A stretch of 53,377 bases of DNA from Candidatus Nanopelagicaceae bacterium (GTDB lineage Bacteria; Actinomycetota; Actinomycetes; Nanopelagicales; Nanopelagicaceae): the NCBI GenBank assembly GCA_947454735.1, contig CANGLK010000006.1:1-53377 (forward strand). The letters run 5' to 3'. Shown here one piece after another: positions 27,217-41,300 of the stretch. The position numbers and the translations under genes were made by a program. Within the stretch, counting starts at the first letter, position 1, and each line of letters opens with the position of its first letter. The notes beneath the pieces were generated by a model. The model did not search any database. It was not told the DNA's origin and worked only from the letters and a program-made list of their open reading frames with translations.

Positions 27217-28542
27217 ATGGTGCCATTTGGATTTACACCTGATGATGGCGATGGCGCTGACCGCGAAAATAAAGAGAACCTCGAAGCGATGATGCGTCAG
27301 ATGCAAGAGCAGATCAAAGAACAGTTTGAACAGCTCGGTATCAACCCTGGTGCAGGTTTTCCAATGGCGGGACTCGGCGCACTCTTCGGTGGCGCAAGTC
27401 AGGAAGCACTTCCCATCGCACCAGTGCGCGATACAGGAAAGAAATTTGTCACAGCCCAGGGCTCTCAACCACTTGGAACAAATGATGTGACTGCAGTGAA
27501 TAATGCCTGCGAGATCGCAGATATCTGGCTCAATGAAGCGACAGATTTTCCAGCAACACCATCTTCTGCGCCTCGTGCAATTAGCCGCCTGGATTGGATT
27601 GATGAGACCCTGCCAGGATGGCAGGCAACGATGGAGCCACTTGCAACTGGTCTGAGCTCAGCAATCTCTCGCCTCCTAGATGAAGCAGTTGCCGGCTCTG
27701 GAAGCGAATTTGAAGAGCAGATGGGCGCTGCACCTATAGGGGCAATTGCTGGCCTATTACGCTCATTTATAGGCTCAATGATTGCAACTCAGCTTGGTCA
27801 GGCAATTGGTGGCATCGCAACGACGGCAACAGGTGCACACGATGCTGGCCTTCCCATTCTTCAACCAGCTCGCTCACTCTTGATCCCTGAAAATATTGAG
27901 GCGTGGGGAGCAGATACAGAAATTGCAAAGACAGAGATTTACTTATTCCATGCTTTACGTGAAGGAGCTATTGCTCGTTTATTTGAACATAATCCATGGA
28001 TTGTCTCTTATATTCGCAGCGCAATTGTTGAATATGGTGCAGGAATTCGTATCGACCTCGATGCAATTCAACGCCAGGCAGAAGAGGCGATGCAAGGTTT
28101 CGGCGATGCAAGTGGTGAAGAATCTTTCACAATTAGCCTTGATTCAGGAATCTTTACTCCTGAAGAGACATATTCACAACGCGCTGCACTTTCAAAATTA
28201 GAAACTGTGCTTGCACTTGTAGATGGTTGGGCTGATGATGTCGCAACTCTTGCAGCAGGAGATCGCATTCCATCAATTACTGCACTTCGCGAACTTCATC
28301 GACGTAAGCGCGCAACTAGTGCGCCATCACAGCAACTCTTTAAAACAATGTTGGGACTTGAGGTCTCACCAAGACTTGCACGTGAAGCGAGCGCCTTCTG
28401 GAGCCGCGTCCGTGAATTGAAGGGAACATCTGCACGCGATCAGATCTGGAGTGGAATTCTTCCTAGCGCTACTGAACTTCTTGCGCCGGATCTCTTCTTG
28501 GCATCGACTGAGATTCCTGATGATCTCTCAGGTTTGATTTAA
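27217..28542 (+). CDS. DUF2342 / zinc-dependent metalloprotease-annotated family protein (Rv3195 type)
   Basis: 441 aa from ATG 27217, which follows GGGGG 7 nt upstream and gives the family N-terminus MVPFGFTPDDG. The motif YLFHALREGAIARLFEHNPWI lies where family members usually have a histidine-containing LREAAHxRLF, so the presumed metal-binding segment looks altered. The C-terminal block TALRELHRRKRATSAPSQQLFKTMLGLEVSPRLAREASAFW is well preserved. The gene is divergent from the YlbL pair, as in mycobacteria. Enzymatic activity is not demonstrated by the sequence. Confidence 0.88.
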   Translation: MVPFGFTPDDGDGADRENKENLEAMMRQMQEQIKEQFEQLGINPGAGFPMAGLGALFGGASQEALPIAPVRDTGKKFVTAQGSQPLGTNDVTAVNNACEIADIWLNEATDFPATPSSAPRAISRLDWIDETLPGWQATMEPLATGLSSAISRLLDEAVAGSGSEFEEQMGAAPIGAIAGLLRSFIGSMIATQLGQAIGGIATTATGAHDAGLPILQPARSLLIPENIEAWGADTEIAKTEIYLFHALREGAIARLFEHNPWIVSYIRSAIVEYGAGIRIDLDAIQRQAEEAMQGFGDASGEESFTISLDSGIFTPEETYSQRAALSKLETVLALVDGWADDVATLAAGDRIPSITALRELHRRKRATSAPSQQLFKTMLGLEVSPRLAREASAFWSRVRELKGTSARDQIWSGILPSATELLAPDLFLASTEIPDDLSGLI

Positions 28543-28582
28543 CTATCGAAGTAGGGGCATCCCTAAATTTTCAGGAGAAAAG

Positions 28583-28653
28583 CGAAGTCCCCGGGGCCAC
28601 ATCTAATATCTGCCTTCCCCTTGCAGATATCAAACGGTTATCCGAGGACTTCG
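28583..28653. repeat. Nested inverted repeats in the 209-bp gap before the DUF45 gene
   Basis: The outer arms CGAAGTCC (28583-28590) and GGACTTCG (28646-28653) enclose an inner perfect hairpin ATATCTGC (28606-28613) and GCAGATAT (28623-28630) with a 9-nt loop. There is no T-tract, so this is not a plain terminator of the DUF2342 gene. It could be a structured leader RNA or a protein-binding site. The rest of the gap (28543-28751) holds no ORF I can support. Confidence 0.6.
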
Positions 28654-28751
28654 TAACCGCAAAGTACGCAGAAATTACCGTGTGTGCAAATAACGATTCA
28701 GCGTTTCACACCTACAATTCCTCAAGGTAAGGTCGAGAGATTGGAGCGCGC

Positions 28752-29327
28752 ATGGCTGAAGATGAGGCGCCTACTCTCCCTGGAATTACAGAGGGCGAGA
28801 TCCTGGTCATCCGCTCGGCCCGTCGAAAGAAATCAGCCTCTGCCTACCGCCAAGGTGGACGGATCGTCATCTCACTGCCGGCCAGAATGAGCAAGGCGGA
28901 GGAGGCCCAGGTCGTCCCTGAGCTAATCGCCATCATCCGTGGCCGTGAAGCTGCCAAGACCCCGAGCGAGCAGGCCCTTGCCGAGCGCATCGACGCCCTC
29001 CTCACTGAATTAGCCCCCGAAATCACCGCTCGTCCCGCCAGCATCTCTTGGCGCCCAATGCGCGAGCGCTGGGGCTCATGTACGAGCGTCGACCGCACTA
29101 TCCGTATCTCTGACCGCCTCAAGCTCGCCCCTGATTACGCCCTCGACTATGTCCTCTTCCATGAGGCGATCCACCTCCAATGGAGCGATCACGGCCAGGA
29201 GTTCACCGATACCTTGGCCCGTTTTGAGGATTCTGAGCTCGCCAGCGCCTATCTCGACGGCTGGGAGGCGGCTGAACGGGCGATGCTCGACCCCGTCGAG
29301 CTGAAAAAGCTCGGCGCGAAGGGCTAG
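28752..29327 (+). CDS. DUF45 / SprT-like zinc metallopeptidase (YgjP/WSS1 type)
   Basis: 191 aa. Zinc site HEAIH at 137-141 with a third ligand at H147 (SDHGQEF), and the family motif RWGSC at 106-110. TTGGAG lies 5 nt before the ATG. The third-position GC is visibly higher than in neighbouring genes (many GCC, CTC and GAG codons). A perfect 22-bp repeat covers the end of the gene and continues past the stop. Function: putative DNA-protein-crosslink or general metallopeptidase; substrate unknown. Confidence 0.9.
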   Translation: MAEDEAPTLPGITEGEILVIRSARRKKSASAYRQGGRIVISLPARMSKAEEAQVVPELIAIIRGREAAKTPSEQALAERIDALLTELAPEITARPASISWRPMRERWGSCTSVDRTIRISDRLKLAPDYALDYVLFHEAIHLQWSDHGQEFTDTLARFEDSELASAYLDGWEAAERAMLDPVELKKLGAKG

Positions 29328-29348
29328 TCGAGCTGAAAAAGCTCGGCG
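29295..29348. repeat. Perfect 22-bp direct repeat across the stop codon of the DUF45 gene
   Basis: Copies at 29295-29316 and 29327-29348, 32 bp apart start to start. Each copy contains the palindrome GAGCTgaaaaAGCTC. The first copy codes for the protein end (VELKKLG); the second begins at the third base of the stop codon. This looks like a recent local duplication. Bases 29349-29471 hold no further gene. Confidence 0.85.
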
Positions 29349-29471
29349 TGACACCCCTAAAGATTGCCCACAAATTTGCGCTTGCTTACGCGTATTTGAG
29401 CGTGGGTCGGAGTATGGTTTCAACCAATACGCGCACGCCGCATAACTCGGTGGCGCCGATTGGAGGCAATC

Positions 29472-29633
29472 ATGGCAGAGACATACAAGGGTGACGCTTA
29501 CTGCGTTAAGTGCAAGGAGAAGCGTGACTTCGAGGGAACTGTAAAGGTCTCTGACTCAGGTCGTCGCATGGCACAGGGCATCTGCCCAGTCTGCGGTACC
29601 AAGGTCAACCGTATCCTCGGTAAGGCACAGTAA
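29472..29633 (+). CDS. Small DUF5679 zinc-ribbon protein (53 aa)
   Basis: 53 aa, short enough to be missed by length-filtered ORF searches. Starts ATG 29472 with GGAGG 6 nt upstream. It contains C11-x2-C14 (AYCVKCKEKR) and C40-x2-C43 (ICPVCGTK), a four-cysteine zinc ribbon. The sequence matches the actinobacterial DUF5679 family, found next to these neighbours in many genomes. An intrinsic terminator follows. Function unknown. Confidence 0.9.
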   Translation: MAETYKGDAYCVKCKEKRDFEGTVKVSDSGRRMAQGICPVCGTKVNRILGKAQ

Positions 29634-29687
29634 CTCTTTCCTAACACCACGTTTGGCGCGATAAGCACCCAAACAAAGAACGTAGCT

Positions 29688-29723
29688 GAACCCCTCGCAT
29701 AATACGCGGGGGGTTCTTCTTTT
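29688..29723 (+). terminator. Intrinsic terminator after DUF5679
   Basis: Arms GAACCCC (29688-29694) and GGGGTTC (29710-29716) extend with GC-rich partners around a short AT loop (cataata), and the plus strand continues with TTCTTTTC. A further GTTTGG/CCAAAC hairpin lies just upstream near 29651-29674. Confidence 0.85.
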
Positions 29724-29811
29724 CTCCACGATGAGTTAATGAATGTGCGCTCGCTCCACAGTTCAAAGCAGTGCGGTGATCTCGCCAACTGCTTCGCGCT
29801 CATCATCGCCC

Positions 29812-30924
29812 ATGGCTCATCACACATCGCTCAACTCACCTGCTCGCTACACGCTCATCCGTGGTTGCTCCCTCTTCAATGATCGACGATTACCCACTCG
29901 TTACTACATCGGAACCTCTGGCCGTGTTGCCGCCGTCACATCTGCATATCAACGCACTGCGCTCACCCAATTAGCTCTTGGAATCGATCCACTCGCTCAT
30001 GTTTCAACTGAGGTGCGTAATGAGCTCGAGCGCTTTATCGAAAGTTTGGCGATTAACGGTTTCCTTAATCATCAACGTGCTCAATTGAGCGCACCAAAGA
30101 GATACTTCGAATCAATTAGTGAGAGCGATATCGCCGCGAACCATTTGCGAGTGAGATGCGAACCAGAACTCGCACAATCCGAGTGGATTGATGGTTCAGG
30201 AGATGGCGGAACTTCAATTGTTGCGGCACGTTCGCAATATCCGATCGTTCTCTCTGGTCGCTCTCGCGTCATCACACTCCTCTATTCGATACTTCTCACA
30301 AGCGGAGTCACACGAGTTCGATTTGCGGATCGCCATTACAGATCAATCATTGAGAGTACTGATGTTGGCTTTGGGGCGATTACTGGCGATGATTTGGGGC
30401 TTAACTTCTATGAGAGATGTGAATCTGCACGCAGAGCCTTATCACTCTTTCCTATTGATTCATCGAGTCGATATGACCTCGACACTTCACGCCCTTTAGC
30501 GATTGTTCATTACGGTGATTGCGATCCCGAAAGCCTTGTCGAATGGTCGAATAAATGCTTGCCGCACCTTGTTATTCATAAACCCATTGGAGATGAGATT
30601 GCGGTCGGGCCAATGGTGATTCCGGGTGAAACTCCCTGTATTCGATGCTTGTCGCTCTACGAGATAGATAACTTTGGATTTACGCGCCTTGAGCGAATTC
30701 CTATCAATGAGGTCAGTGAACTGCCCGCATATACCGCTCACTACGTCGCATCAATTGCCGCGATGCATATTCTTAACTTTATCGACCGAACGAGCGATTC
30801 AGATGACGGAGGCGCCACTCGCAATACGAGTATCGGTGAGGTTTCTTTTATTAACTTTCAACGGCTTACAGAGCCGCAGGTGGTGGCGATTGCTCGCCAT
30901 CCACTCTGCGGTTGTGCTTATTAA
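29812..30924 (+). CDS. ThiF/cyclodehydratase-like (TOMM-precursor-binding-like) protein, Rv3196 type
   Basis: 370 aa from the ATG at 29812, which begins MAHHTSLNSPARYTLIRGC. The family start and the zinc-type cysteine pairs CIRCLSLYEID and HPLCGC are seen; together with GPMVIPGETPCIRC these match the actinobacterial family annotated as ThiF-like or TOMM-precursor-leader-binding. No YcaO or precursor peptide lies nearby, so a RiPP role is unproven. The longer reading from 29743 adds a serine-rich stretch. It sits convergent with whiB7, as in mycobacteria (Rv3196 to whiB7), though the Rv3197-like kinase is missing. Confidence 0.75.
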   Translation: MAHHTSLNSPARYTLIRGCSLFNDRRLPTRYYIGTSGRVAAVTSAYQRTALTQLALGIDPLAHVSTEVRNELERFIESLAINGFLNHQRAQLSAPKRYFESISESDIAANHLRVRCEPELAQSEWIDGSGDGGTSIVAARSQYPIVLSGRSRVITLLYSILLTSGVTRVRFADRHYRSIIESTDVGFGAITGDDLGLNFYERCESARRALSLFPIDSSSRYDLDTSRPLAIVHYGDCDPESLVEWSNKCLPHLVIHKPIGDEIAVGPMVIPGETPCIRCLSLYEIDNFGFTRLERIPINEVSELPAYTAHYVASIAAMHILNFIDRTSDSDDGGATRNTSIGEVSFINFQRLTEPQVVAIARHPLCGCAY

Positions 30925-30940
30925 CTTTCTTTAATAGAAA

Positions 30941-31273
30941 TTAAGCTGCGATCACCTGACGTGGTGGGCGACCTGGACGGCGCTTACGCACGATGACTGC
31001 CCCATCTTCAATTAACTCGCCACCCCAGACACCACATGGCTCAGCGCGATCGATGGCGCCTTCAAGGCATGCGAGCTTCATAGGACATGAACCGCAGAGT
31101 GACTTCGCAAAGGCAATCTCGAGATCAGAGTCGGCGAAGAAGGTCTCAGGGTCTGCGTTATGGCAGGGCAGCGTGAAGGCCTTGGCGTTATCAGATGTAT
31201 ATGTGACATCTCCAAGTCCAATGTATTGATCTGTCCAACCTGCTACCTGTAGTTCGCTGTAGAGAACGGTCAT
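30941..31273 (-). CDS. whiB7: WhiB7-family iron-sulfur transcription factor
   Basis: 110 aa. The four cluster-binding cysteines are C37, C60, C63 and C69 (PCHNADPE; CGSCPMKLAC). GVWGG is at 81-85 and an AT-hook RRPGRPPR is at 98-105, which separates WhiB7 from other WhiB proteins. WhiB7 activates intrinsic antibiotic-resistance genes together with the main sigma factor by binding an AT tract upstream of the -35. A strong AAGGAGGT site precedes the ATG. It is encoded downstream of uvrD2, as in M. tuberculosis. Upstream there is an attenuator-type leader (31274-31666). Confidence 0.92.
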   Translation of the reverse strand: MTVLYSELQVAGWTDQYIGLGDVTYTSDNAKAFTLPCHNADPETFFADSDLEIAFAKSLCGSCPMKLACLEGAIDRAEPCGVWGGELIEDGAVIVRKRRPGRPPRQVIAA

Positions 31274-31335
31274 CGCCCCTACCTCCTTATCCTTTTCTTT
31301 GCTTTCATCTCGATTAGTTGTTTTAGTTCTTTGGG

Positions 31336-31380
31336 AAATAAAAAAGGCCCCGATAAATCCTTGAGTGGATTTACGAGGCC
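31336..31380 (-). terminator. Strong intrinsic terminator in the whiB7 leader
   Basis: On the minus strand the arm GGCCTCGTAAATCC (31380-31367) pairs with GGATTTATCGGGGCC (31360-31346): 13 Watson-Crick pairs, one G-U and one bulge, around the loop ACTCAA. TTTTTTATTT follows immediately. It lies between the upstream ORF stop and whiB7, 63 nt from the whiB7 start, and would block read-through into whiB7 unless an alternative fold forms. Confidence 0.93.
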
Positions 31381-31408
31381 GTTGTTTGCATTTATCGGTT
31401 AGCCGATA
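31350..31408 (-). promoter_or_regulatory. Stop-codon hairpin and 9-bp antiterminator pairing in the whiB7 leader
   Basis: TATCGG (31408-31403), loop CTAA, CCGATA (31398-31393): a 6-bp hairpin whose loop holds the stop codon TAA of the upstream ORF. The same segment CCGATAAAT (31398-31390) is a perfect 9-bp complement of ATTTATCGG (31358-31350), the descending arm of the terminator. The two folds are mutually exclusive, so translation of the stop region can choose between terminator and read-through. Confidence 0.8.
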
Positions 31409-31578
31409 GTTGCCCCTGTGGCCTCATCCACTGCATAAAAGTTGGCGTAGAACGCTGACTTTGTAGCTGTGGGCCAATTGCGCTTATGAGTGCGCGCAAA
31501 GTTGGCAGAAGTTGTGTGAGCATGTGAAGTTGCAGCTGTGCGTGATACGCCAGCTGTGAGAACGAGAGTCTGTGACAT
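31399..31578 (-). CDS. Upstream open reading frame (59 aa) of the whiB7 leader
   Basis: ATG at 31578, stop TAA at 31401-31399. The ribosome site AGGGA is 7 nt upstream. The peptide starts MSQTLVLTAGVSRTAATS and ends EATGATIG; 23 of its 59 residues are Ala or Thr. It has no membrane helix or known domain. It ends exactly at the competing hairpins, which fits a role as a ribosome-sensing uORF of whiB7; a separate small protein is an alternative. A longer 87-codon frame (31392-31655) overlaps it out of phase and has no ribosome site. Confidence 0.75.
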   Translation of the reverse strand: MSQTLVLTAGVSRTAATSHAHTTSANFARTHKRNWPTATKSAFYANFYAVDEATGATIG

Positions 31579-31599
31579 TCGCTCTTCCCTTCACTTAAG

Positions 31600-31620
31600 C
31601 TCTTACGATTTTCGTAAGAG
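31600..31620. repeat. 9-bp perfect hairpin at the 5' end of the whiB7 leader
   Basis: CTCTTACGA (31600-31608) and TCGTAAGAG (31612-31620) with a 3-nt loop. If transcription starts near 31619, this hairpin forms right at the RNA 5' end and may protect the leader from decay. It lies about 22 nt before the uORF start. Confidence 0.8.
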
Positions 31621-31625
31621 TGGAA

Positions 31626-31666
31626 AGGATAGAGGAGGGGCGCTGTTACTCGCAAGGTAATTAAAT
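31626..31666 (-). promoter_or_regulatory. Promoter of the whiB7 leader with WhiB7-type AT tract
   Basis: Minus strand: TTGCGA (31655-31650), 18-nt spacer, TATCCT (31631-31626). Two bases upstream of the -35 is the all-A/T stretch ATTTAATTA (31666-31658). A/T-rich DNA about 3 bp upstream of the -35 is the established WhiB7-dependent promoter mark, so autoregulation is likely. Confidence 0.72.
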
Positions 31667-31696
31667 GCGAGATGAGGCGAGAAGGTGCTAAAGCCT

Positions 31697-33385
31697 CTAA
31701 ATGAGCGTGGATTCAGCTAAGAAACGTGAAGGCTCGGCTCGATAGGTGATGTGTAGGTCTGCCTTTGCGCGAGTCATGCCCACATAGAAGAGGCGACGCT
31801 CCTCTGCAATCACTGCATCGGTAAGGGTGGTTCCCGAGTTAGTGAGCGGAAGAATTCCTTCAGATGCGCCGATGAGATAGACGCGCTCCCATTCGAGACC
31901 CTTAGCTGCATGGAGCGTTGCCAGGGTTATGACCGGCATCGTTGGTGGATTGTTCTGCTGAACGCGATCTTCTACCTCTCGCAGGTATCCGCGGAGGGTC
32001 TTCGGCGCAAAGTTGGGATTCTCATTGAGTTCGCGGCCAAGGTGAAGCAAGGCTGCGATGCCATCGATGGATTCACCAGTTAAGAATGGTTGTGCGATAG
32101 AACGCAGCTCATCGATCCAATCACTGCCCTCGGCGGGAATAACAGATGCCTGACGGACCTGCTTAAGAAAATCGCGAACATCGGTGCGATCGAAGAATCG
32201 CTCGGTATTACGAACTTGATATGGAATACCTTCGCGATTCATTGCGCGCTCTACCGCAGATAACTGCGCATTGGTACGAGCGAGAACTGCTATCTCTTGG
32301 GGCTGGACTCCACCAGTGAGAAGAACCTTGATATCAGAGAGAATTCCAGCGATCTCAGATTGCTCATCTTTAAAGCCCTGAACCGATGGTTTGCTGCCGT
32401 GGCTGTTAAAGGCGACAAGCTCCTGCCCCATTGTTCCGGCGCGCAGAATTGAGTTGGCGGCAAATGTAATTTCGGGTGTGGAGCGATACCCGGTGCTAAG
32501 GCGAATGACCTGCGCCTCTGGAAAGCGTTGAGTAAATGTATTTAAGAAGACGGGAGTTGCGCCAGCAAATGAGTAAATAGTCTGAGCGGGATCTCCGACA
32601 ACACAGATGTCGCTACGGGTTCCAAGCCATGCGTTAATAAGACGTTGCTGCACAGGCGAGATATCTTGATACTCATCAACTGTGAAATATCGGTATTGAT
32701 CTTGAACTCGTTCACGGACATCGCGCTCTTCTTCGAGCATCGCGGAAGTAAGCAAGAGAACATCCTCGAAATCGATTGCGAGCTCTTGTTTCTTAATGGA
32801 CTCGTAAGCGGTGTAGAGCTGTACGAGTTGTTCTGGATTTACACGTGGTTTAATCAAACGCTTTGAAATCTCATCAATGAAATCTTCAGGAGATACCTGT
32901 GAAACTTTTGCCCACTCAATTTCAGTTGCGATATCGCGCATCAGATCGCGGTTATGAGATGAGATGACTGAAGTCAGATCAGCCCGGCGGATTGCTTCAG
33001 TAATAAAGCTTCCCTTGGATGTAATGAGATCCGGAGCGCGACCACCAAAGACTGTCGGCCAGAAGAAGAGGAGCTGCTTTAACGCTGCAGAGTGCACAGT
33101 TCTTGCGGCAACGGTCGGAACGCCTAGGGTGCGAAGTCGTGCCCGCATCTCACCTGCGGCGCGAGCGGTAAATGTCAGTGCAAGTACCTTCTGCGGATCC
33201 ATCGTGCCGATTGCCGATGCATATGCGATTCGGTGAGTAATTGCTCTCGTCTTTCCAGTGCCAGCGCCTGCGATAACGCAGACCGGGCCACGAGTAGCAA
33301 GGGCTACTGCGCGCTGGTCGTCATCGAGCGCTTCAAGAATCTTTGCGGCATCTAGCGTTGACGGCGCGAAATCGTCTAACGCCAT
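31697..33385 (-). CDS. uvrD2: UvrD2-like superfamily I DNA helicase, no HRDC domain
   Basis: 562 aa 3'-5' helicase. Walker A AGAGTGKT (about 39-46), ALTFTARAAGEMRAR (motif Ia), DEYQDISPVQ (motif II), STGYRSTPEI (motif IV) and VTLATLHAAKGLEWERVYL/GMTRAKADL (motifs V and VI). Mycobacterial UvrD2 is about 700 aa and carries an HRDC domain after a tetracysteine linker; here the protein ends shortly after motif VI (FLAESTLI), so HRDC is missing. It overlaps nudC by 10 nt. Confidence 0.9.
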   Translation of the reverse strand: MALDDFAPSTLDAAKILEALDDDQRAVALATRGPVCVIAGAGTGKTRAITHRIAYASAIGTMDPQKVLALTFTARAAGEMRARLRTLGVPTVAARTVHSAALKQLLFFWPTVFGGRAPDLITSKGSFITEAIRRADLTSVISSHNRDLMRDIATEIEWAKVSQVSPEDFIDEISKRLIKPRVNPEQLVQLYTAYESIKKQELAIDFEDVLLLTSAMLEEERDVRERVQDQYRYFTVDEYQDISPVQQRLINAWLGTRSDICVVGDPAQTIYSFAGATPVFLNTFTQRFPEAQVIRLSTGYRSTPEITFAANSILRAGTMGQELVAFNSHGSKPSVQGFKDEQSEIAGILSDIKVLLTGGVQPQEIAVLARTNAQLSAVERAMNREGIPYQVRNTERFFDRTDVRDFLKQVRQASVIPAEGSDWIDELRSIAQPFLTGESIDGIAALLHLGRELNENPNFAPKTLRGYLREVEDRVQQNNPPTMPVITLATLHAAKGLEWERVYLIGASEGILPLTNSGTTLTDAVIAEERRLFYVGMTRAKADLHITYRAEPSRFLAESTLI

Positions 33386-34278
33386 GTCTCGCCAGCTAAC
33401 TTACTTTTATCGAGCTCTGTCGCACCTAGCCAGCCTTCAATCATTCGTCGGGCAACGCTGACGGTAGGTGGGAGTAAGAGTGAACCATCTTCAGCGGCGG
33501 CTTTGAGCTCTTCACGAGAGAACCACTTCACCTCTGTGATCTCTTCACCATCAGGGCGCGCATCATCTGGTGCATCTGTCACAGCTTCAAAGGCAATCAT
33601 GATGCTTGCCGGAAATGGCCACGGTTGTGAACCAAGATATTTAATCTCTGAAAGTCTTACGCCAGATTCTTCAAAGGCTTCACGTGCAACACAGTGTTCA
33701 AAAGTTTCACCTGGCTCGAGAAATCCTGCAAAAGTTGAGAAGCGACCATCAGGCCAAACCGGTTGATGACCAAGAAGGATTCGATCTGCGCGATCTTTAA
33801 TGAGAACGATTACCGCTGGATCGGTTCGTGGATGATGCTGGCTTTCATCCACATCACATTTACGTGCAGCACCCGCTAGATCAACACGAGTGGGCGCGCC
33901 GCACTTTGAACAATGGGGATGTGCATCATGCCAATTAGAGAGAGCAATGGCATGCATTGAAATTTCTAAGTGCAGTGGAGAGAGACCGCCTGCTAATTCA
34001 CGTAGCGTTAAGTAATCCTCAACATCAGATACGACCGCGCCTGACGCCCATGCAAAGTAAGGAGTATCGGTTGCCCGGTCGAATCCGAGGAAGTAGCGCT
34101 CTCCCCCAATTGCCTCTATCGATGGAATAAAGGTGGGGCCATCGACTGTGCTTCGGATCCGGCCTTTGCCGACCTCGATGATCTTGGCTGAGCGCCAGAG
34201 CTCTTCGATTCGAGCGGGATTGCTCCGCAAATCTCCAGCACGATCCATCAAGGAACTCTTCTGTGGAATCGCGCTCAT
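33376..34278 (-). CDS. nudC: NAD(+) diphosphatase NudC
   Basis: 300 aa Nudix hydrolase that cleaves NADH and can remove NAD caps from RNA. Zinc ligands start with CSKC, then C in ARKCDVDESQ; the fourth ligand of the E. coli-type ribbon is not a cysteine, as in many actinobacteria. The Nudix box is GFLEPGETFEHCVAREAFEESGV, and SQPWPFPASIM is the NudC-specific SQPWPFPxS motif. TAACCT (34290-34285), CCACCT and then ATG suggest a leaderless start. It lies upstream of uvrD2; the glutaredoxin-like gene between them in mycobacteria is absent. Confidence 0.95.
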   Translation of the reverse strand: MSAIPQKSSLMDRAGDLRSNPARIEELWRSAKIIEVGKGRIRSTVDGPTFIPSIEAIGGERYFLGFDRATDTPYFAWASGAVVSDVEDYLTLRELAGGLSPLHLEISMHAIALSNWHDAHPHCSKCGAPTRVDLAGAARKCDVDESQHHPRTDPAVIVLIKDRADRILLGHQPVWPDGRFSTFAGFLEPGETFEHCVAREAFEESGVRLSEIKYLGSQPWPFPASIMIAFEAVTDAPDDARPDGEEITEVKWFSREELKAAAEDGSLLLPPTVSVARRMIEGWLGATELDKSKLAGETWR

Positions 34279-34338
34279 AGGTGGAGGTTACTAGCCATTC
34301 AAAGTTCAGAGGCCATGGCGTTGAACTAGCCTTACCCC
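34279..34338. promoter_or_regulatory. 60-bp divergent leaderless promoter region of nudC and the EEP gene
   Basis: Minus: TAACCT at 34290-34285, spacer CCACCT, ATG 34278. Plus: TAGCCT at 34327-34332, spacer TACCCC, ATG 34339. Neither start has a ribosome site. Confidence 0.7.
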
Positions 34339-35133
34339 ATGCGCCTCACATCATGGAATTTCCTGCACGGCCAGAGCCTCAACCCCGCTGAAAAAGCTGA
34401 TGTTGCGGCAGCTGTGGCCCTTTTGGGTAGCGATGTCATGGCCCTCCAAGAGATTGACTATCGACTCCCCCGTTCAATGAATATCAATCAAACCCTTGTC
34501 GTTGCAGATGCAATGGGGGCGAACTGGTGGGGGTTCGCTCCTGCAATTAAGGGCACGCCTGGTGTGAAATGGCGCAAGCTCGATTCTCGCGAGCAGCAAG
34601 TGCTCACACTCTCCGATCTCGATAATCAAGGTGAGTATTACGGAATCTCAATCGTCTCAAAGATTCCAGTGCAGAAGTGGCTAAGGCTAGAGCTCGGCAA
34701 GGCATGGATTGGCCTTCCACTTCTTGTTGCAAATGAGAAAGGAAAGGTTGCGCCTTTCTATGTCAAAGATGAACCTCGCGTTGCACTTGCAGCTGTATTA
34801 GAAAATGGTTGGACCATCATTAATGTCCATCTCTCTTTCGTTCCATTTGTAAATATCTTTCAACTCTTAAAGGTAACTCGCTGGGCGAAGAAGCTAGAGA
34901 AGGAAACTTCCACAAAGGTTGCACTTGTTGGAGATTTCAATTTGCCGTGGGGATTGCCAACGCGCCTTACTCGATGGAGGCGCGCAACTGATGCGCTGAC
35001 ATATCCATCCTGGAAGCCTGCAATCTCATTCGATTACATCCTCTTACGTGGCGGCTTAGATCTGCAATCCGTAGAAGTAGTCGCACCTCAAATGGCGATG
35101 AGCGATCACCGCCCCATATCGATCGATATCTAG
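34339..35133 (+). CDS. Endonuclease/exonuclease/phosphatase family protein
   Basis: 264 aa. EEP-fold metal-dependent phosphodiesterase: SWNFLHG at the N-terminus, MALQEID (the metal-binding Glu), INVHLSF, GDFNLP and C-terminal MSDHRPI, the catalytic Asp-His pair. Leaderless (TAGCCT, 6 nt, ATG). It is convergent with adnB and overlaps its end by 4 nt. The substrate (nucleic acid, phospholipid or sugar phosphate) is not known. Confidence 0.9.
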   Translation: MRLTSWNFLHGQSLNPAEKADVAAAVALLGSDVMALQEIDYRLPRSMNINQTLVVADAMGANWWGFAPAIKGTPGVKWRKLDSREQQVLTLSDLDNQGEYYGISIVSKIPVQKWLRLELGKAWIGLPLLVANEKGKVAPFYVKDEPRVALAAVLENGWTIINVHLSFVPFVNIFQLLKVTRWAKKLEKETSTKVALVGDFNLPWGLPTRLTRWRRATDALTYPSWKPAISFDYILLRGGLDLQSVEVVAPQMAMSDHRPISIDI

Positions 35134-38100
35134 CTTAAGAGCGCAGTAAGTTGATCAAGGCTCAGCAGGTTTGAGCGTCGATCGGTAACACCAGTTGGAA
35201 CATAGTGGAATGCTGCAGTGACGCTCTCGACCGGAACCTTTGTTAAGTCAGCCCATGCCAAACGATAGAGCGCGAGCTGAATTGCAGAATCTTCATCGAG
35301 AACGGTAGAACCAGTCTTCCAATCCACTACCTCAAAGCCCTGCTCTGTCTTATAAATTGCATCGATTCGACCACGGACAAGAGTTCCTGCAATCACAGTC
35401 TCAAATGGCACTTCAACATCGAATGCGGTGCGAGGCGCCCACTCAGATTCAAGCCACTTGCTCTTGAGCTCTTCTAGGGTGCGATCTTCTTCGATGGGTG
35501 CAAGGAGATCGAAATCATCATCATCAAAGATCGAACTGCCCTTGAGATGCTTCTCAATCCATAAGTGGAAAGCTGTTCCCCGAGATGAATACTCATCGCG
35601 GGCGCGTGGCATAGGTCTACGTACGCTCTGAGCAAATTCCTCTGGGTTCTTCTTCATAGCAATAATTGAGGATGGAGACATTCGGATAGGACGTGGGACA
35701 TCAAGGCCGTTGCCACGGAACTCAGAGTTCTCACGAATAATCGCCTCGGCATCTTCTACCCATGATGTCACTGCAGCATCGCCTGTAATTGTTCCAAGTG
35801 GTACCGCTTGAGCAGAGCGCACCTTAGCAACGCTGCTTTCAAATGCAGCACGACGAGCTCCTAGTGGATCACGTGGCCAGGTCGCGGTGATTTCGATATC
35901 TTCCTGTGGGTTACGGGCATCTGTTGCAGGAGCTTCAAGCTCATCAATGACTGTTCCTGAGGTACGTGCAATCTCTTCAACGCTGCGATAGAGAACCGAT
36001 GGCGCTAGCGGCTTGACGCCTTCTCCCCAATATGAGGCAGAACAGAAGAGGTGCGACTTTGCGCGAGTGACTGCAACATAACCAAGGCGAATCTCTTCGC
36101 TATAACGGTAGCGAGAACAATTATCCTTGTAAGCATCAAGTGCCTTATTGGCATCAGAGTTAGTTGAAATCTGCGAAAGGTTGAGTTGTGGCACCACGTG
36201 AGCATCACTACGTAGCGCGAATGGGATAAAGCGTTCGTTAAATACCCAGTTTTCAGGGCTTCTAGAGCTCTTTGAAGGGAATGTACCCTCAGTTAATCCT
36301 GGGATAGCAACAACATCCCATTCAGCGCCCTTAGACATGTGGATTGTAAGAATCTGTACGACGCTTGAATCAACATCTGGGGCGCCGGCTTTGAGGCCAC
36401 CTTCTTCCTCGCTTGCTACATCGAGCCATTGGATGAATCCATTGAGCGATCCACCTGAACGCGCGAACTTACTTGCCTCATCAAGGAAGCGATCAAGGTG
36501 GCGACGTCCATGGATACCCTCTTCACGTAACATCACCTCGGCTTCGAGGTTGAGGTATCGCTCGATCTCGAGGATGAGATCTGTAATCGAAGCTGATGCG
36601 CGCGAACGAAGTCTGCGTAGGTCAGATGAAAATTGCACGAGGCGTGAATATCCTGAAGATGAGAAATCGCGAGCATTTGCCTTATCAATCTCATCGAGTG
36701 CATCAATGAGAGATCCAGCAATCTGATCATCGTTATCTGATGAGAGTGGATTGCCCGCGATGATGTTCTGAACAAGGGTGCGGTTATCCGAACCTTCACT
36801 CTTAGCACGGCTACGTGAGTAACGACCAAGCGCTGCAATATCGCGTGGACCGAGATTGATGCGTGGACCGGTGAGATGGCGCATCAACGCCCCACCGGCG
36901 TCAGGTGAATTGATTACCTTAAGAAGCGCAACGATATCTGCAACCTCTGGAACGTGGATGAGCCCACCGAGTCCGAGAACTTCAGATGGAATATTCGCGG
37001 CAGTAAGCGCCTCTTCAATATATGTAATCTGTGACTTCTTACGTACCAAGACAGCGAAAGTCATTGGTTTTAGGGCGCTTTGATTACCCTGCCAGAGAGG
37101 CGTGAAGTACTCGGCAATGGCCTGCGCCTCTGCCTCAAGGTTTTCAAAAATTCCGCAGGTAAGCGCTCCTGCGCCGGCGCCTGGACGAGCACGTAGTGGC
37201 TCGACCTTTACGCCATCGTTATTTCGCACTCCCTCAGAGATGATATTTGCGACATCGAGAATGCTCTGATCATTGCGATAGGTGGTCGATAAGTTGTATT
37301 GAAGTTCACCTGCAAACGGTGATGACTTAGGGAAGTAATTATTAAATGCTCCGATGGTTCCCGCTGCTGCACCACGCCATGTATAGATGCTCTGACATGG
37401 ATCACCAACTGCTGTCACTGGATGGCCGCCGCCGAAGAGAGTAGAGAGTAGGCGCACCTGAGAATGTGATGTGTCTTGATATTCATCGAGGAGAACAACT
37501 GGATATTTCGCACGTTCAATTGCGCCAACATCTGGGAAGGATTGTGCGATTCGTGCAGATAGAGCAATCTGATCATCGAATGAGAGCTGACCACTGGTGC
37601 GACGCTGCTCAAGGAACTTATCCATCATGGCAACGAGGCCGATACGTTGTTGCGATGTGAGGGCTGCCTTACGGACGCCCTCATTAGTTGGGCCACCCAT
37701 TCGAGAGAGTTCAGCAAGAAGTTTCGTATCTTCGTCAACAATCTGATCGCTCGTTACTTGGTGCTCTAGAGCTTGTGATGTGAGACCGAGTAGATCCTCG
37801 ACAACAGTCGAAATTGAACTCTCATTTGTAAAACCATCTTCATCCCAATTGCGGACAATCCGATTGGCCATCATCCAGAGAGCGGCTTCACCGAGCGGCT
37901 GTGAATCGGCATCGATTCCAAGGCGGATGGAATGTTCTGAGAGGATGCGGCCAGCGTATGAGTGATAGGTCGTGACAGAGGTATCGAGGCTTAAAAAGGG
38001 GCGTTCTATACCGCTCTTCTCCATTCCCTTTGCCAATTGGCCGAGGCGCTTTCGAATACGCAGATTAAGTTCGCCGGCAGCCTTACGAGTAAAGGTGAGG

Positions 38101-38339
38101 CCGAGAATCTGATCCGGTCGGACAAAGCCGTTAGCAACGAGATAAACAACGCGAGATGCCATTGTCTCTGTCTTACCCGAGCCCGCTCCTGCAATGACAA
38201 CTGCTGGCTCGAGCGGGTTGCTCTTGATCGAGATGATCTTTGATTGTTCATCGCTTGGTGATGGGAACTTTGGATCGATCAACTGGATAAAATGTGCAAC
38301 TTGTTGCGGTGTGTACTTCTCATTCATTGCAGTACTCAT
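35130..38339 (-). CDS. adnB: AdnB-like helicase-nuclease subunit
   Basis: 1069 aa from ATG 38339, overlapping the adnA stop as ATGA. UvrD-type motor with Walker A AGAGSGKTETM, motif II DEYQDTSHSQ, TYRNDQS and VTRAKSHLF. The C-terminal PD-(D/E)XK nuclease has GRIDAIYKTEQGFEVVDWKTG (Asp and DxK) and a RecB-type QLALYRLAW helix. AdnAB resects double-strand breaks; both subunits have a motor and a nuclease. The size and order match Rv3201c-Rv3202c. Confidence 0.92.
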   Translation of the reverse strand: MSTAMNEKYTPQQVAHFIQLIDPKFPSPSDEQSKIISIKSNPLEPAVVIAGAGSGKTETMASRVVYLVANGFVRPDQILGLTFTRKAAGELNLRIRKRLGQLAKGMEKSGIERPFLSLDTSVTTYHSYAGRILSEHSIRLGIDADSQPLGEAALWMMANRIVRNWDEDGFTNESSISTVVEDLLGLTSQALEHQVTSDQIVDEDTKLLAELSRMGGPTNEGVRKAALTSQQRIGLVAMMDKFLEQRRTSGQLSFDDQIALSARIAQSFPDVGAIERAKYPVVLLDEYQDTSHSQVRLLSTLFGGGHPVTAVGDPCQSIYTWRGAAAGTIGAFNNYFPKSSPFAGELQYNLSTTYRNDQSILDVANIISEGVRNNDGVKVEPLRARPGAGAGALTCGIFENLEAEAQAIAEYFTPLWQGNQSALKPMTFAVLVRKKSQITYIEEALTAANIPSEVLGLGGLIHVPEVADIVALLKVINSPDAGGALMRHLTGPRINLGPRDIAALGRYSRSRAKSEGSDNRTLVQNIIAGNPLSSDNDDQIAGSLIDALDEIDKANARDFSSSGYSRLVQFSSDLRRLRSRASASITDLILEIERYLNLEAEVMLREEGIHGRRHLDRFLDEASKFARSGGSLNGFIQWLDVASEEEGGLKAGAPDVDSSVVQILTIHMSKGAEWDVVAIPGLTEGTFPSKSSRSPENWVFNERFIPFALRSDAHVVPQLNLSQISTNSDANKALDAYKDNCSRYRYSEEIRLGYVAVTRAKSHLFCSASYWGEGVKPLAPSVLYRSVEEIARTSGTVIDELEAPATDARNPQEDIEITATWPRDPLGARRAAFESSVAKVRSAQAVPLGTITGDAAVTSWVEDAEAIIRENSEFRGNGLDVPRPIRMSPSSIIAMKKNPEEFAQSVRRPMPRARDEYSSRGTAFHLWIEKHLKGSSIFDDDDFDLLAPIEEDRTLEELKSKWLESEWAPRTAFDVEVPFETVIAGTLVRGRIDAIYKTEQGFEVVDWKTGSTVLDEDSAIQLALYRLAWADLTKVPVESVTAAFHYVPTGVTDRRSNLLSLDQLTALLS

Positions 38340-41300
38340 CCAATCACCGACCTTCCCTGAAGGTGGACTGGGCATGAGCTCTTCACAGGGCAGTAGCTAC
38401 AGAAATCATTCTTCTTTGCGATAAATGTTGGGGCTGCCATCTGATCTGCAATCAAACTAAGATGCGTCGTGACATCTTCTACAACTATCGGTGGACGCTC
38501 GCGAGTGGCGACTTCCTTTGTATCGTGACCAAGGAAGACGAGATGCGACCCTGAGATTTCAGGCGAATCAAACTTCTTCTCAAATCCATTGAGGACTACT
38601 GCTAATTGGTAGCAGGCTAATTGAAGGTTCTCTGCAGCTTCTTTCTTGCCGATTGCTTTTCCGGTCTTAAAGTCCACAACGAAGTACTTGCCATCACCAT
38701 CTACCTCAAGGCGATCGACTGAACCGCGCACCTTTGCTCGACCGAGTTCAAATTCAAAGGTGAGTTCAACGCCCTCTACCTCGCGGGTTGATGTGCGGTG
38801 GTACTGAGCAAATCGTTCAAGCATCTTCTGCGCGCGTTGAAGTTGTAACTTGCTGATCCATCCGGTGGATTCTGTAATCAACGGCCATGCCTTATCGAGC
38901 GAGGTATATAAATCTTGGTCGGTAATTGCGGGATCTTCGACCTTAATACGTGCATATTCATGGATTACTGATCCCAAGAGCTGCGCCGTTGAATCTCCAT
39001 CTGATCCACCATTGCGCTCAAGGAGCCACTTAAGGCCACACTTTTCAAATGATTCGGCGGCACTTGGCGAGATAGGAATCAGCTCGCTCTCATCAAAGAG
39101 TGGGGCCTCTGTTGTGAGGGGATGTGCGCCAAGCCAGTTATCAGGGTCGGCAACTGCGATTTCGGATGAGGCGAGCGTTGCCAGAAGAGATGCAGCGAGA
39201 TCGCCTTTCTCTGTTGCAAGTGATCGGCGAAGTGATGCAACGAGTGCATTTGCTGTGAGTGGGCGTGCATCGTTAAATTCAATGGTCGAGAAGGCATCTG
39301 ATTCTGATGCCTCAAGGAAGAATGCTGATGGCGAATCTTCTTCACGGGTAACTGCGGTGATGTGGAGCTCTTCGCTGGCACGAGTAGTTGCCACATGGAA
39401 GAGGCGTTTTTCATCTTCGGCGAGTGATTGCGCGGTGATGAGATCGAGCGCTACCTGTGCCAACTCTTCACCATGACGTTCACGTTCGACGAGTCTTTCT
39501 GCACCGAGCAGCGTGCTGCGCTGCTTGAGGTTGGGCCAAATACCTTCTTGGATGCCAGCGACAAAGACGCGCTTAAATTGAAGGCCTTTAGCTGAGTGAA
39601 CCGTTAGGAGTTCAACTACATCAGGACGAACGCCCTTCGTTGTAATGAGGTCAGAGACGATATTCTCTTGAGATATTTCATTGAGAAAAATCTTTGGATG
39701 AGCCCCCGGCATGCGATCTATATGGCGGGCAGCAGAGTCAAAGAGTTGCACCATTGCATCGAGATCGCGATCGGCAGAAGCTCCACGTGAACCACCACGG
39801 AGCGCTGCTCGTTGCCACGCTTCAGAGATCAGTTGGTTCTCTGCATTGCGAGCCTCTGACCAGATTGCCCAGAGAAGATCATGGATTGATGCGTTCTTCT
39901 TCCGTAGAGATTTACGTGCGGATGCGAGGAGATCGTGGATGCGGCGAAGTTCTGCGCTCTCTTCGATAGGAATATCGCCCTTTTCGAGGGCATCGATAAT
40001 CATCTCGGTTCCGGTACGGATATCAGTAACATCGTTGCGAGATTTGAGAAGCGAGGTACGAATTCTTCGAAGTGAGATAGAGGTAGCGCCACCAAATTCA
40101 GCGAGTAGTAGACGTTCGCAATTTTCTAGCGTGAGCCCTTCGATACCTGCTGCAATGCGAGCCAGTAATAGGAAAGGCGCAATGGCTGCATTTGATGCGA
40201 TCGCTTCACGGTCACCTGCAACAGGGATTCCAGATTGCCCTAGCGCTCTACGAATAGCTGTCGCCGTTGCATTATGGGCACGGAGAATGATCGCCATATC
40301 TGAGTAAGCGATGCCTTCGATTAAGTGTGCTCGCTTGATGTTGTAGGCAATATATTGCGCCTCTTCTGCCTCAGAGCGAAGTTCGACTGCATATTTTGAT
40401 GGAGCTCCGCGGTGATTTTCAGTAAGAGTGACTGTAGTCGCACCGCTGATGGCGCGGTCGAGATATTGATTGACCCCATCTGGATCAGAGCCGCGAAAGC
40501 GACCGACAGATGATTGTGGATCGACGACTGCAACGAAATCCTGACCTGCTAAGAGTTCAAGAAGGCGTCGCTGCGCAGGGTCGGTCTCATGGAATTCATC
40601 GACCATGATGGTCGTAAAGCGCTTACGCAGGCTTTCAAGGAGATCTGGGTTGCGCTTCAAGTGAGCTATTGCTGCATTAATAATCTCTGATGGGTCGATG
40701 CGCATCTTGGCATCACCTGCGCCAGTATCCATATTTGCAGAGACCTCAAGGTACTGCTGCCAGAATTGCGCAGCTGGTTTCCAGAAACGTTCTTTGAGGC
40801 GTTCGCCTTTTTCGCGAAGATCTATCGGTGTTAATCCGCGCTCTGTTGCACGCATCATCAAGTCGCGGAGTTCACGGATAAATCCTTGGGTAAGAAGCGG
40901 TTCCCCCATAACGATCTCTTCAACTGCGCCAGGATCTTTACGGAGATCTGTCGGCCACCAATCAACGCCATCTGCGATATTGCCTTCAAGTAAGACCTTG
41001 ATAAATGCCTCTTGTTCTGCGCCAGAGATCAAGACCGTCTCACGGAAGGTCTCACCCGATGTCATCGCCAGAATTGAATATGCAAGTGCGTGAAATGTGC
41101 GCGAGACGGGTTCTTGAACAGTTCCACCGGATGCAACCACAATCGCATCGCGAATCTCTGATGCACGTTCGCGGCCGAATGCAAGGATAAGAATTGAATC
41201 TGCGGCAGCGCCGGTACGAATACGATCAATGGCACATTCGATAAGGGTTGTTGTCTTACCTGTGCCGGTTGCTCCACGAATAATCAGTGGTGAACCACGG

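Follow-up and report, generated by a model that had tools for sequence, protein, structure and literature searches.

The whiB7 locus in an acI genome

The window, a stretch of 53,377 nucleotides, comes from a 1.4-Mb acI genome of the Nanopelagicaceae which is Planktophila-like. Its minus strand carries a gene for a Whib-domain protein preceded by a long leader (Table 1). The product ends in an AT-hook-like RPGRPPR tail placed as in WhiB7, and domain searches identify an adjoining UvrD-like helicase (31697–33385), followed by a NUDIX protein (33376–34278) and a protein with UvrD and PDDEXK domains (35130–38375). We take this order to match the whiB7–uvrD2–nudC–adn arrangement of Mycobacterium tuberculosis. 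On the basis of the Whib domain, the AT-hook-like tail and the uvrD2–nudC–adn synteny, the gene downstream of the leader is assigned as whiB7. Of 32 high-quality genomes in the genus, 29 have it (E ≤ 1e-25), as do 100 of 104 genomes of the order (E ≤ 1e-12). In one related genus (L040–L043 and L115–L117) the protein carries an insertion of about 40–50 residues that separates its N-terminal motif from the Whib domain. Convergent with whiB7 in the window is an open reading frame on the plus strand (29743–30924) that has no Pfam hit; its match to TIGR03882, the TOMM precursor leader peptide-binding protein, is below threshold (E 7.5e-6).

A preliminary description of the leader, made from the sequence of the window, had listed a promoter, a 5′ hairpin, an upstream open reading frame (uORF) with its ribosome site, a hairpin at the uORF stop codon, an intrinsic terminator with a T-run and the Shine–Dalgarno (SD) sequence of whiB7. 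All of these are found in place, and the 5′ hairpin, the stop hairpin and the terminator fold far better than shuffled sequences (z −5.4 to −5.7). The reading of the leader as a whiB7 attenuator built from uORF and terminator is likewise borne out by the PF02467 domain, the RPGRPPR tail, the synteny and the conservation of both uORF and terminator. That description missed the TTTAATTA element, the hairpin within the uORF and the pairing between the uORF and the terminator arm. A scan of positions 28000–35000 with the Rfam covariance models gave no match at E ≤ 1.

Table 1. Features of whiB7 and its leader in the window
Feature	Positions	Strand	Basis
AT-rich element TTTAATTA, directly upstream of the −35	31658–31665	−	Signature of AT-hook-type autoregulation by WhiB7, from homology with known whiB7 promoters
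Promoter: −35 TTGCGA (31655–31650), 18-nt spacer, −10 TATCCT (31631–31626)	31626–31655	−	Sequence; pattern search
5′ hairpin, 9 bp, just past the inferred transcription start	31600–31620	−	z −5.5 versus shuffles
uORF ribosome site GAAGGGAAGAG	31583–31593	−	Sequence; SD-like sequences in most SD-led relatives
uORF, 59 codons, ATG 31578 to TAA 31401–31399, ending in KSAFYANFYAVDEATGATIG and stop	31399–31578	−	Conservation, dN/dS
uORF-internal hairpin AAGT..GCGTTCTACGC..ACTT	31439–31461	−	z −6.5 on 31436–31464; seen in many relatives
Antiterminator strand 1, AGTGGATGAGGCC, last uORF codons	31420–31432	−	Folding, covariation
Hairpin TATCGG-CTAA-CCGATA, uORF stop in loop, tip of antiterminator arm	31393–31408	−	z −5.7
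Antiterminator strand 2: GGCCTC (31380–31375) and ATCCACT (31370–31364), terminator ascending arm	31364–31380	−	Folding, covariation
Intrinsic terminator, arms 31380–31367 and 31360–31346	31346–31380	−	z −5.4 on 31334–31379
Terminator T-run	31340–31345	−	Sequence, begins at 31345
whiB7 Shine–Dalgarno AAGGAGG	31282–31288	−	Sequence
whiB7, 110 aa	30941–31273	−	Whib domain PF02467, E 1.3e-13; AT-hook-like RPGRPPR at end

Promoter and 5′ end

With an AT-rich stretch upstream of its −35 element, the promoter appears to be of the autoregulation type and is putatively WhiB7-dependent. The pattern AATTN3TTGCN19-21TANNNT has a single match in the 1.4-Mb genome, the whiB7 promoter itself, and is present in 124 of the 210 loci compared, mostly leaders of relatives. 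Searching the whole genome for a WhiB7 regulon with this strict pattern thus returned whiB7 alone, and a relaxed pattern performed at chance, with 8 matches against 7 in the control. A generic promoter and terminator scanner recovered neither the whiB7 promoter nor the terminator; the terminator stem contains a bulge, and the −35 departs from consensus.

Many SD-led relatives have a hairpin at the same place after the transcription start, with stems of other sequence; in one clade the loop stays CATGGCG or CTTGGCG. The hairpin may serve to protect the RNA 5′ end. Among the acI leaders with a placed promoter, 20 of 98 have the uORF start codon only 6–9 nt past the −10, and such uORFs are probably leaderless. 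Where both promoter and start could be placed, they make up 5 of 62 genus and 15 of 36 other-family leaders, and include L038, L040–L043, L115–L117, L018 and L088–L090. The remaining acI leaders with a placed promoter have an SD sequence, many together with a 5′ hairpin.

The uORF, its stop codon and the terminator

A uORF of 48–63 codons, ending shortly before the terminator, is present in all leaders compared within the genus. That of the window contains 12 Ala and 11 Thr among its 59 codons, and the genus-wide composition is 22% Ala and 12% Thr. Taken over its whole length the uORF has a median dN/dS of 0.40 (750 pairs), which falls to 0.26 in the last 22 codons (722 pairs); the N-terminal part is weakly conserved (0.53). 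Differences cluster at third codon positions. Judged by these comparisons the uORF is under purifying selection, and it is presumably translated. The motif KPAFYAAFYA recurs in uORFs of the genus. In the window the uORF-internal hairpin spans the codons for SAFYANF, and codon choice across this segment may be driven by the RNA. Related endings, GTWSxIG, AWSPPV and TWGPPV, each followed by the stop codon, are seen in other genera and across the class, pointing to what is probably one homologous leader throughout the Actinomycetes.

The combination of an Ala/Thr-rich uORF and a stop codon in a hairpin loop had been put forward as a possible new variant. It is instead widespread, with the stop in a hairpin loop in 68 of 69 genus and 41 of 44 family leaders. 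Stems of at least 4 bp occur around the stop in 99% of the former and 95% of the latter, as against 38% and 53% when the downstream bases are shuffled. Among other-class leaders a strict stop-in-loop test picks out 6 of 21, and the enrichment of stems is weak (71% versus 64% shuffled), because bases of the stop frequently take part in pairs. Many of these leaders have a hairpin close to the stop, and inspection by eye suggests class-wide conservation. The terminator stems of relatives are strong, at around −20 kcal/mol, and their T-runs are conserved.

A conserved antiterminator

Leaders were folded from 60 nt before the stop codon to the terminator loop, that is, without the descending arm, structures being detected from minimum free energy folds with automatic choice of the uORF. 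In the window, AGTGGATGAGGCC pairs with GGCCTC...ATCCACT (31380–31364), and the stop-codon hairpin stands at the tip. At least eight pairs between uORF and terminator arm are formed in 69 of 69 genus, 42 of 44 family and 19 of 21 other-class leaders. This antiterminator is made from uORF sequence and a terminator arm and is mutually exclusive with the terminator. Its energies are better than those reached when codons at the uORF end are shuffled synonymously (mean z −2.8 in the genus, −2.5 in the family and −2.2 in other-class leaders), and the peptide alone is therefore no explanation for the pairing.

Exchange of partners points the same way. Across 55 representatives the cognate duplexes have a mean energy of −23.8 kcal/mol, compared with −18.0 kcal/mol for permuted partners, and none of 20000 permutations was as good as the cognate set (p < 5e-5). 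The advantage of the cognate strand persists within genus, family and class, and by this measure the two strands co-evolve. In the genus alignment 94% of cells are paired in a 7-pair core helix, the covariation of which is 0.202 against 0.123 ± 0.011 in shuffles, a column-based count confined to this core and to the genus and depressed by misaligned rows of the L001 type; the signal collapses if the register is slid. RNAalifold returned no antiterminator consensus from the MAFFT alignments A2 and A1, because the register of the helix shifts between clades. The model R1 was in consequence sequence-only and was set aside.

Beyond the acI order, L045 (acIV contig BJGF01000008.1) repeats this layout ahead of a WhiB gene, with the uORF stop in the tip of an antiterminator formed by uORF and terminator arm.

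Model for the control of whiB7

The leader is very probably a ribosome-controlled transcription attenuator of whiB7, in which translation of the uORF chooses between the terminator and the AGTGGATGAGGCC antiterminator. RNA polymerase would start at the AT-rich autoregulation-type promoter and transcribe the 59-codon uORF. If translation kept pace, a ribosome would occupy the last uORF codons during synthesis of the terminator and cover AGTGGATGAGGCC, whereupon the ascending arm would pair with the descending arm and transcription would end before whiB7. A ribosome stalled earlier in the uORF, by an antibiotic or amino-acid shortage, or one that never loaded, would leave AGTGGATGAGGCC free to pair with the ascending arm the moment that arm emerged from the polymerase, and the stop-codon hairpin would fold at the tip. 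Formation of the terminator would then be delayed and whiB7 transcribed, and WhiB7 would further activate its own promoter. We infer the timing, the antitermination, the inducers and the binding of WhiB7 to the promoter; induction of whiB7 by antibiotics through read-through would be expected. A search of the acI literature found no report of acI cultures tested with antibiotics.

To explore the model, a ribosome footprint was masked at sampled codons of the uORF and folding probabilities were computed. Before the descending arm is made, the antiterminator has a probability of about 1.0 with the A site at sampled codons 2–47 or with no ribosome, and of 0.0 with the A site at codons 50–56. The switch logic of the preliminary description, terminator with a ribosome near the uORF end and antiterminator with a stalled or absent one, is kept, with a different partner strand. 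In the full-length RNA at equilibrium the terminator prevails throughout (probability 0.72–1.0, ribosomes at codons 2–47 included), so that antitermination must be kinetic. A ribosome placed precisely at the stop codon has a footprint that falls just short of the outer helix, which is then predicted to be free, and the antiterminator again reaches 1.0 as long as the descending arm is still missing. For transcription to terminate in the fed state, a ribosome would therefore have to be in the final ten codons, or one inside the antiterminator loop would have to act by steric hindrance. The descending arm starts 41 nt after the stop, roughly the distance to be expected if a ribosome trails RNA polymerase closely. 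A more tentative proposal, which we regard as possible and rather doubtful, is that the stop codon at the antiterminator tip acts as a sensor, the arriving ribosome opening the tip and collapsing the antiterminator, and that this arrangement, leaderless versions included, represents an ancient, formally undescribed RNA element without an Rfam family, common to Actinomycetes and at least one acIV lineage (L045).

Alternative explanations

Two alternatives place the switch elsewhere in the RNA. In the preliminary description the segment after the stop, CCGATAAAT (31398–31390), paired with the descending arm of the terminator, and a ribosome at the stop controlled this 9-bp helix. The complementarity to ATTTATCGG (31358–31350) is indeed perfect in the window, but as an antiterminator the pairing shows neither conservation nor covariation; its lack of conservation in relatives is an outcome that the description itself had named as refuting. 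It is retained in none of the other 68 genus leaders, where the longest match is 3–5 bp; it does not exceed 6 bp in the family and is just 3 bp in the closest relatives, L005 and L035. On the alignment 42% of cells are paired as against 41% in shuffles, with covariation below that of shuffles. We consider this version highly improbable. The match is best seen as a coincidence at strain level, though it may have a minor role in the strain of the window. Even less credible is translational attenuation, in which the leader would hide or expose the whiB7 ribosome site without controlling termination. The order of uORF, hairpins and SD recalls that of erm leaders, where a uORF is followed by hairpins ahead of the SD. 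The whiB7 SD, however, lies some 50 nt beyond the T-run in RNA that folds no better than shuffles (z −0.24, 31255–31345 folded), and both stem and T-run are conserved.

Two further possibilities concern what the ribosome senses. The Ala-richness of the uORFs across the genus, together with the response of mycobacterial whiB7 to alanine starvation (Poulton 2024, as cited in PMC11550727 and PMC10727445), could suggest a classical trp- or ilv-type attenuator reading one charged tRNA, the antibiotic response being incidental. The Ala and Thr codons are scattered, however, the uORF alignment shows no conserved stretch of regulatory codons in any set position, and the N-terminal part is the weakly conserved one. 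Furthermore, release of the antiterminator is predicted for a stall at any of the sampled codons 2–47, which suits a general stall sensor, and we regard dependence on a single amino acid as unlikely. Arrest by the nascent peptide, with the conserved tail (AFYANFYA...) itself stalling the ribosome, has a similarly low probability. The strong amino-acid conservation of the last 22 codons and the recurring KPAFYAAFYA speak for it, but strand 1 of the antiterminator and the uORF hairpin are built from the same codons, so part of the signal may reflect constraint on the RNA. The peptides differ in other genera, and a stall at the tail would cover strand 1 and leave whiB7 off.

Comparison with known systems

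The AGTGGATGAGGCC attenuator has its closest counterparts in the whiB7/wblC leaders of Mycobacterium and Streptomyces (Burian & Thompson 2018; Lee, Lee & Roe 2022; Dinan 2014, PMC4128351). They share an orthologous regulator and a uORF ahead of an intrinsic terminator and, like the acI leader, have an antiterminator that overlaps both the uORF and the terminator. Such an overlap is described in PMC10727445, PMC9618640, PMC11550727, PMC4128351 and PMC13393426, which cite Lee 2022 and Burian & Thompson 2018. The CCGATAAAT structure departs from this published description and the AGTGGATGAGGCC structure fits it. Judged by its architecture, the acI leader belongs to this already known attenuator mechanism. 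Homologous leaders in other-class genomes have uORF ends of the WS-x-P type. The acI leader differs from the mycobacterial and streptomycete ones in its uORF peptide, in A/T-richer stems and in the FYAxFYA of the Planktophila type, and part of the family has leaderless uORFs. The FYAxFYA tail, the uORF-internal hairpin and the leaderless uORFs of some leaders are lineage-specific features. No paper among the 20 that an acI literature search listed refers to whiB7.

Attenuators of the ilvBNC/trp type (M. tuberculosis ilvB1, PMC13236596; Corynebacterium ilvBNC, PMC10272879) are alike in that translation of a short ORF picks terminator or antiterminator, but the acI leader is without a regulatory codon cluster and precedes a stress regulator rather than a biosynthetic operon. 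The leaders of the ARE-ABCF genes are5sc and tiaA (PMC12421871) also combine uORF, terminator and antiterminator, responding there to ribosome-targeting antibiotics. Their uORFs, however, have 3–9 codons with stalling at the start codon, whereas control in acI would be expected from most of the length of a 59-codon uORF.

To the known attenuator, these results add its spread through a streamlined order, versions with leaderless uORFs, the lack of an Rfam family and an AT-rich promoter of the autoregulation type found once in the genome of the window. The acI bacteria, among the most abundant in fresh water and with genomes of about 1.3 Mb, appear to have retained a full translation-stress switch on an antibiotic-response regulator. 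The covariation-supported structure can be tested base by base and converted into an RNA family model, and the pairing to mutate in reporter tests is corrected from that of CCGATAAAT to that between the uORF and the ascending arm, in keeping with the whiB7/wblC leaders already described.
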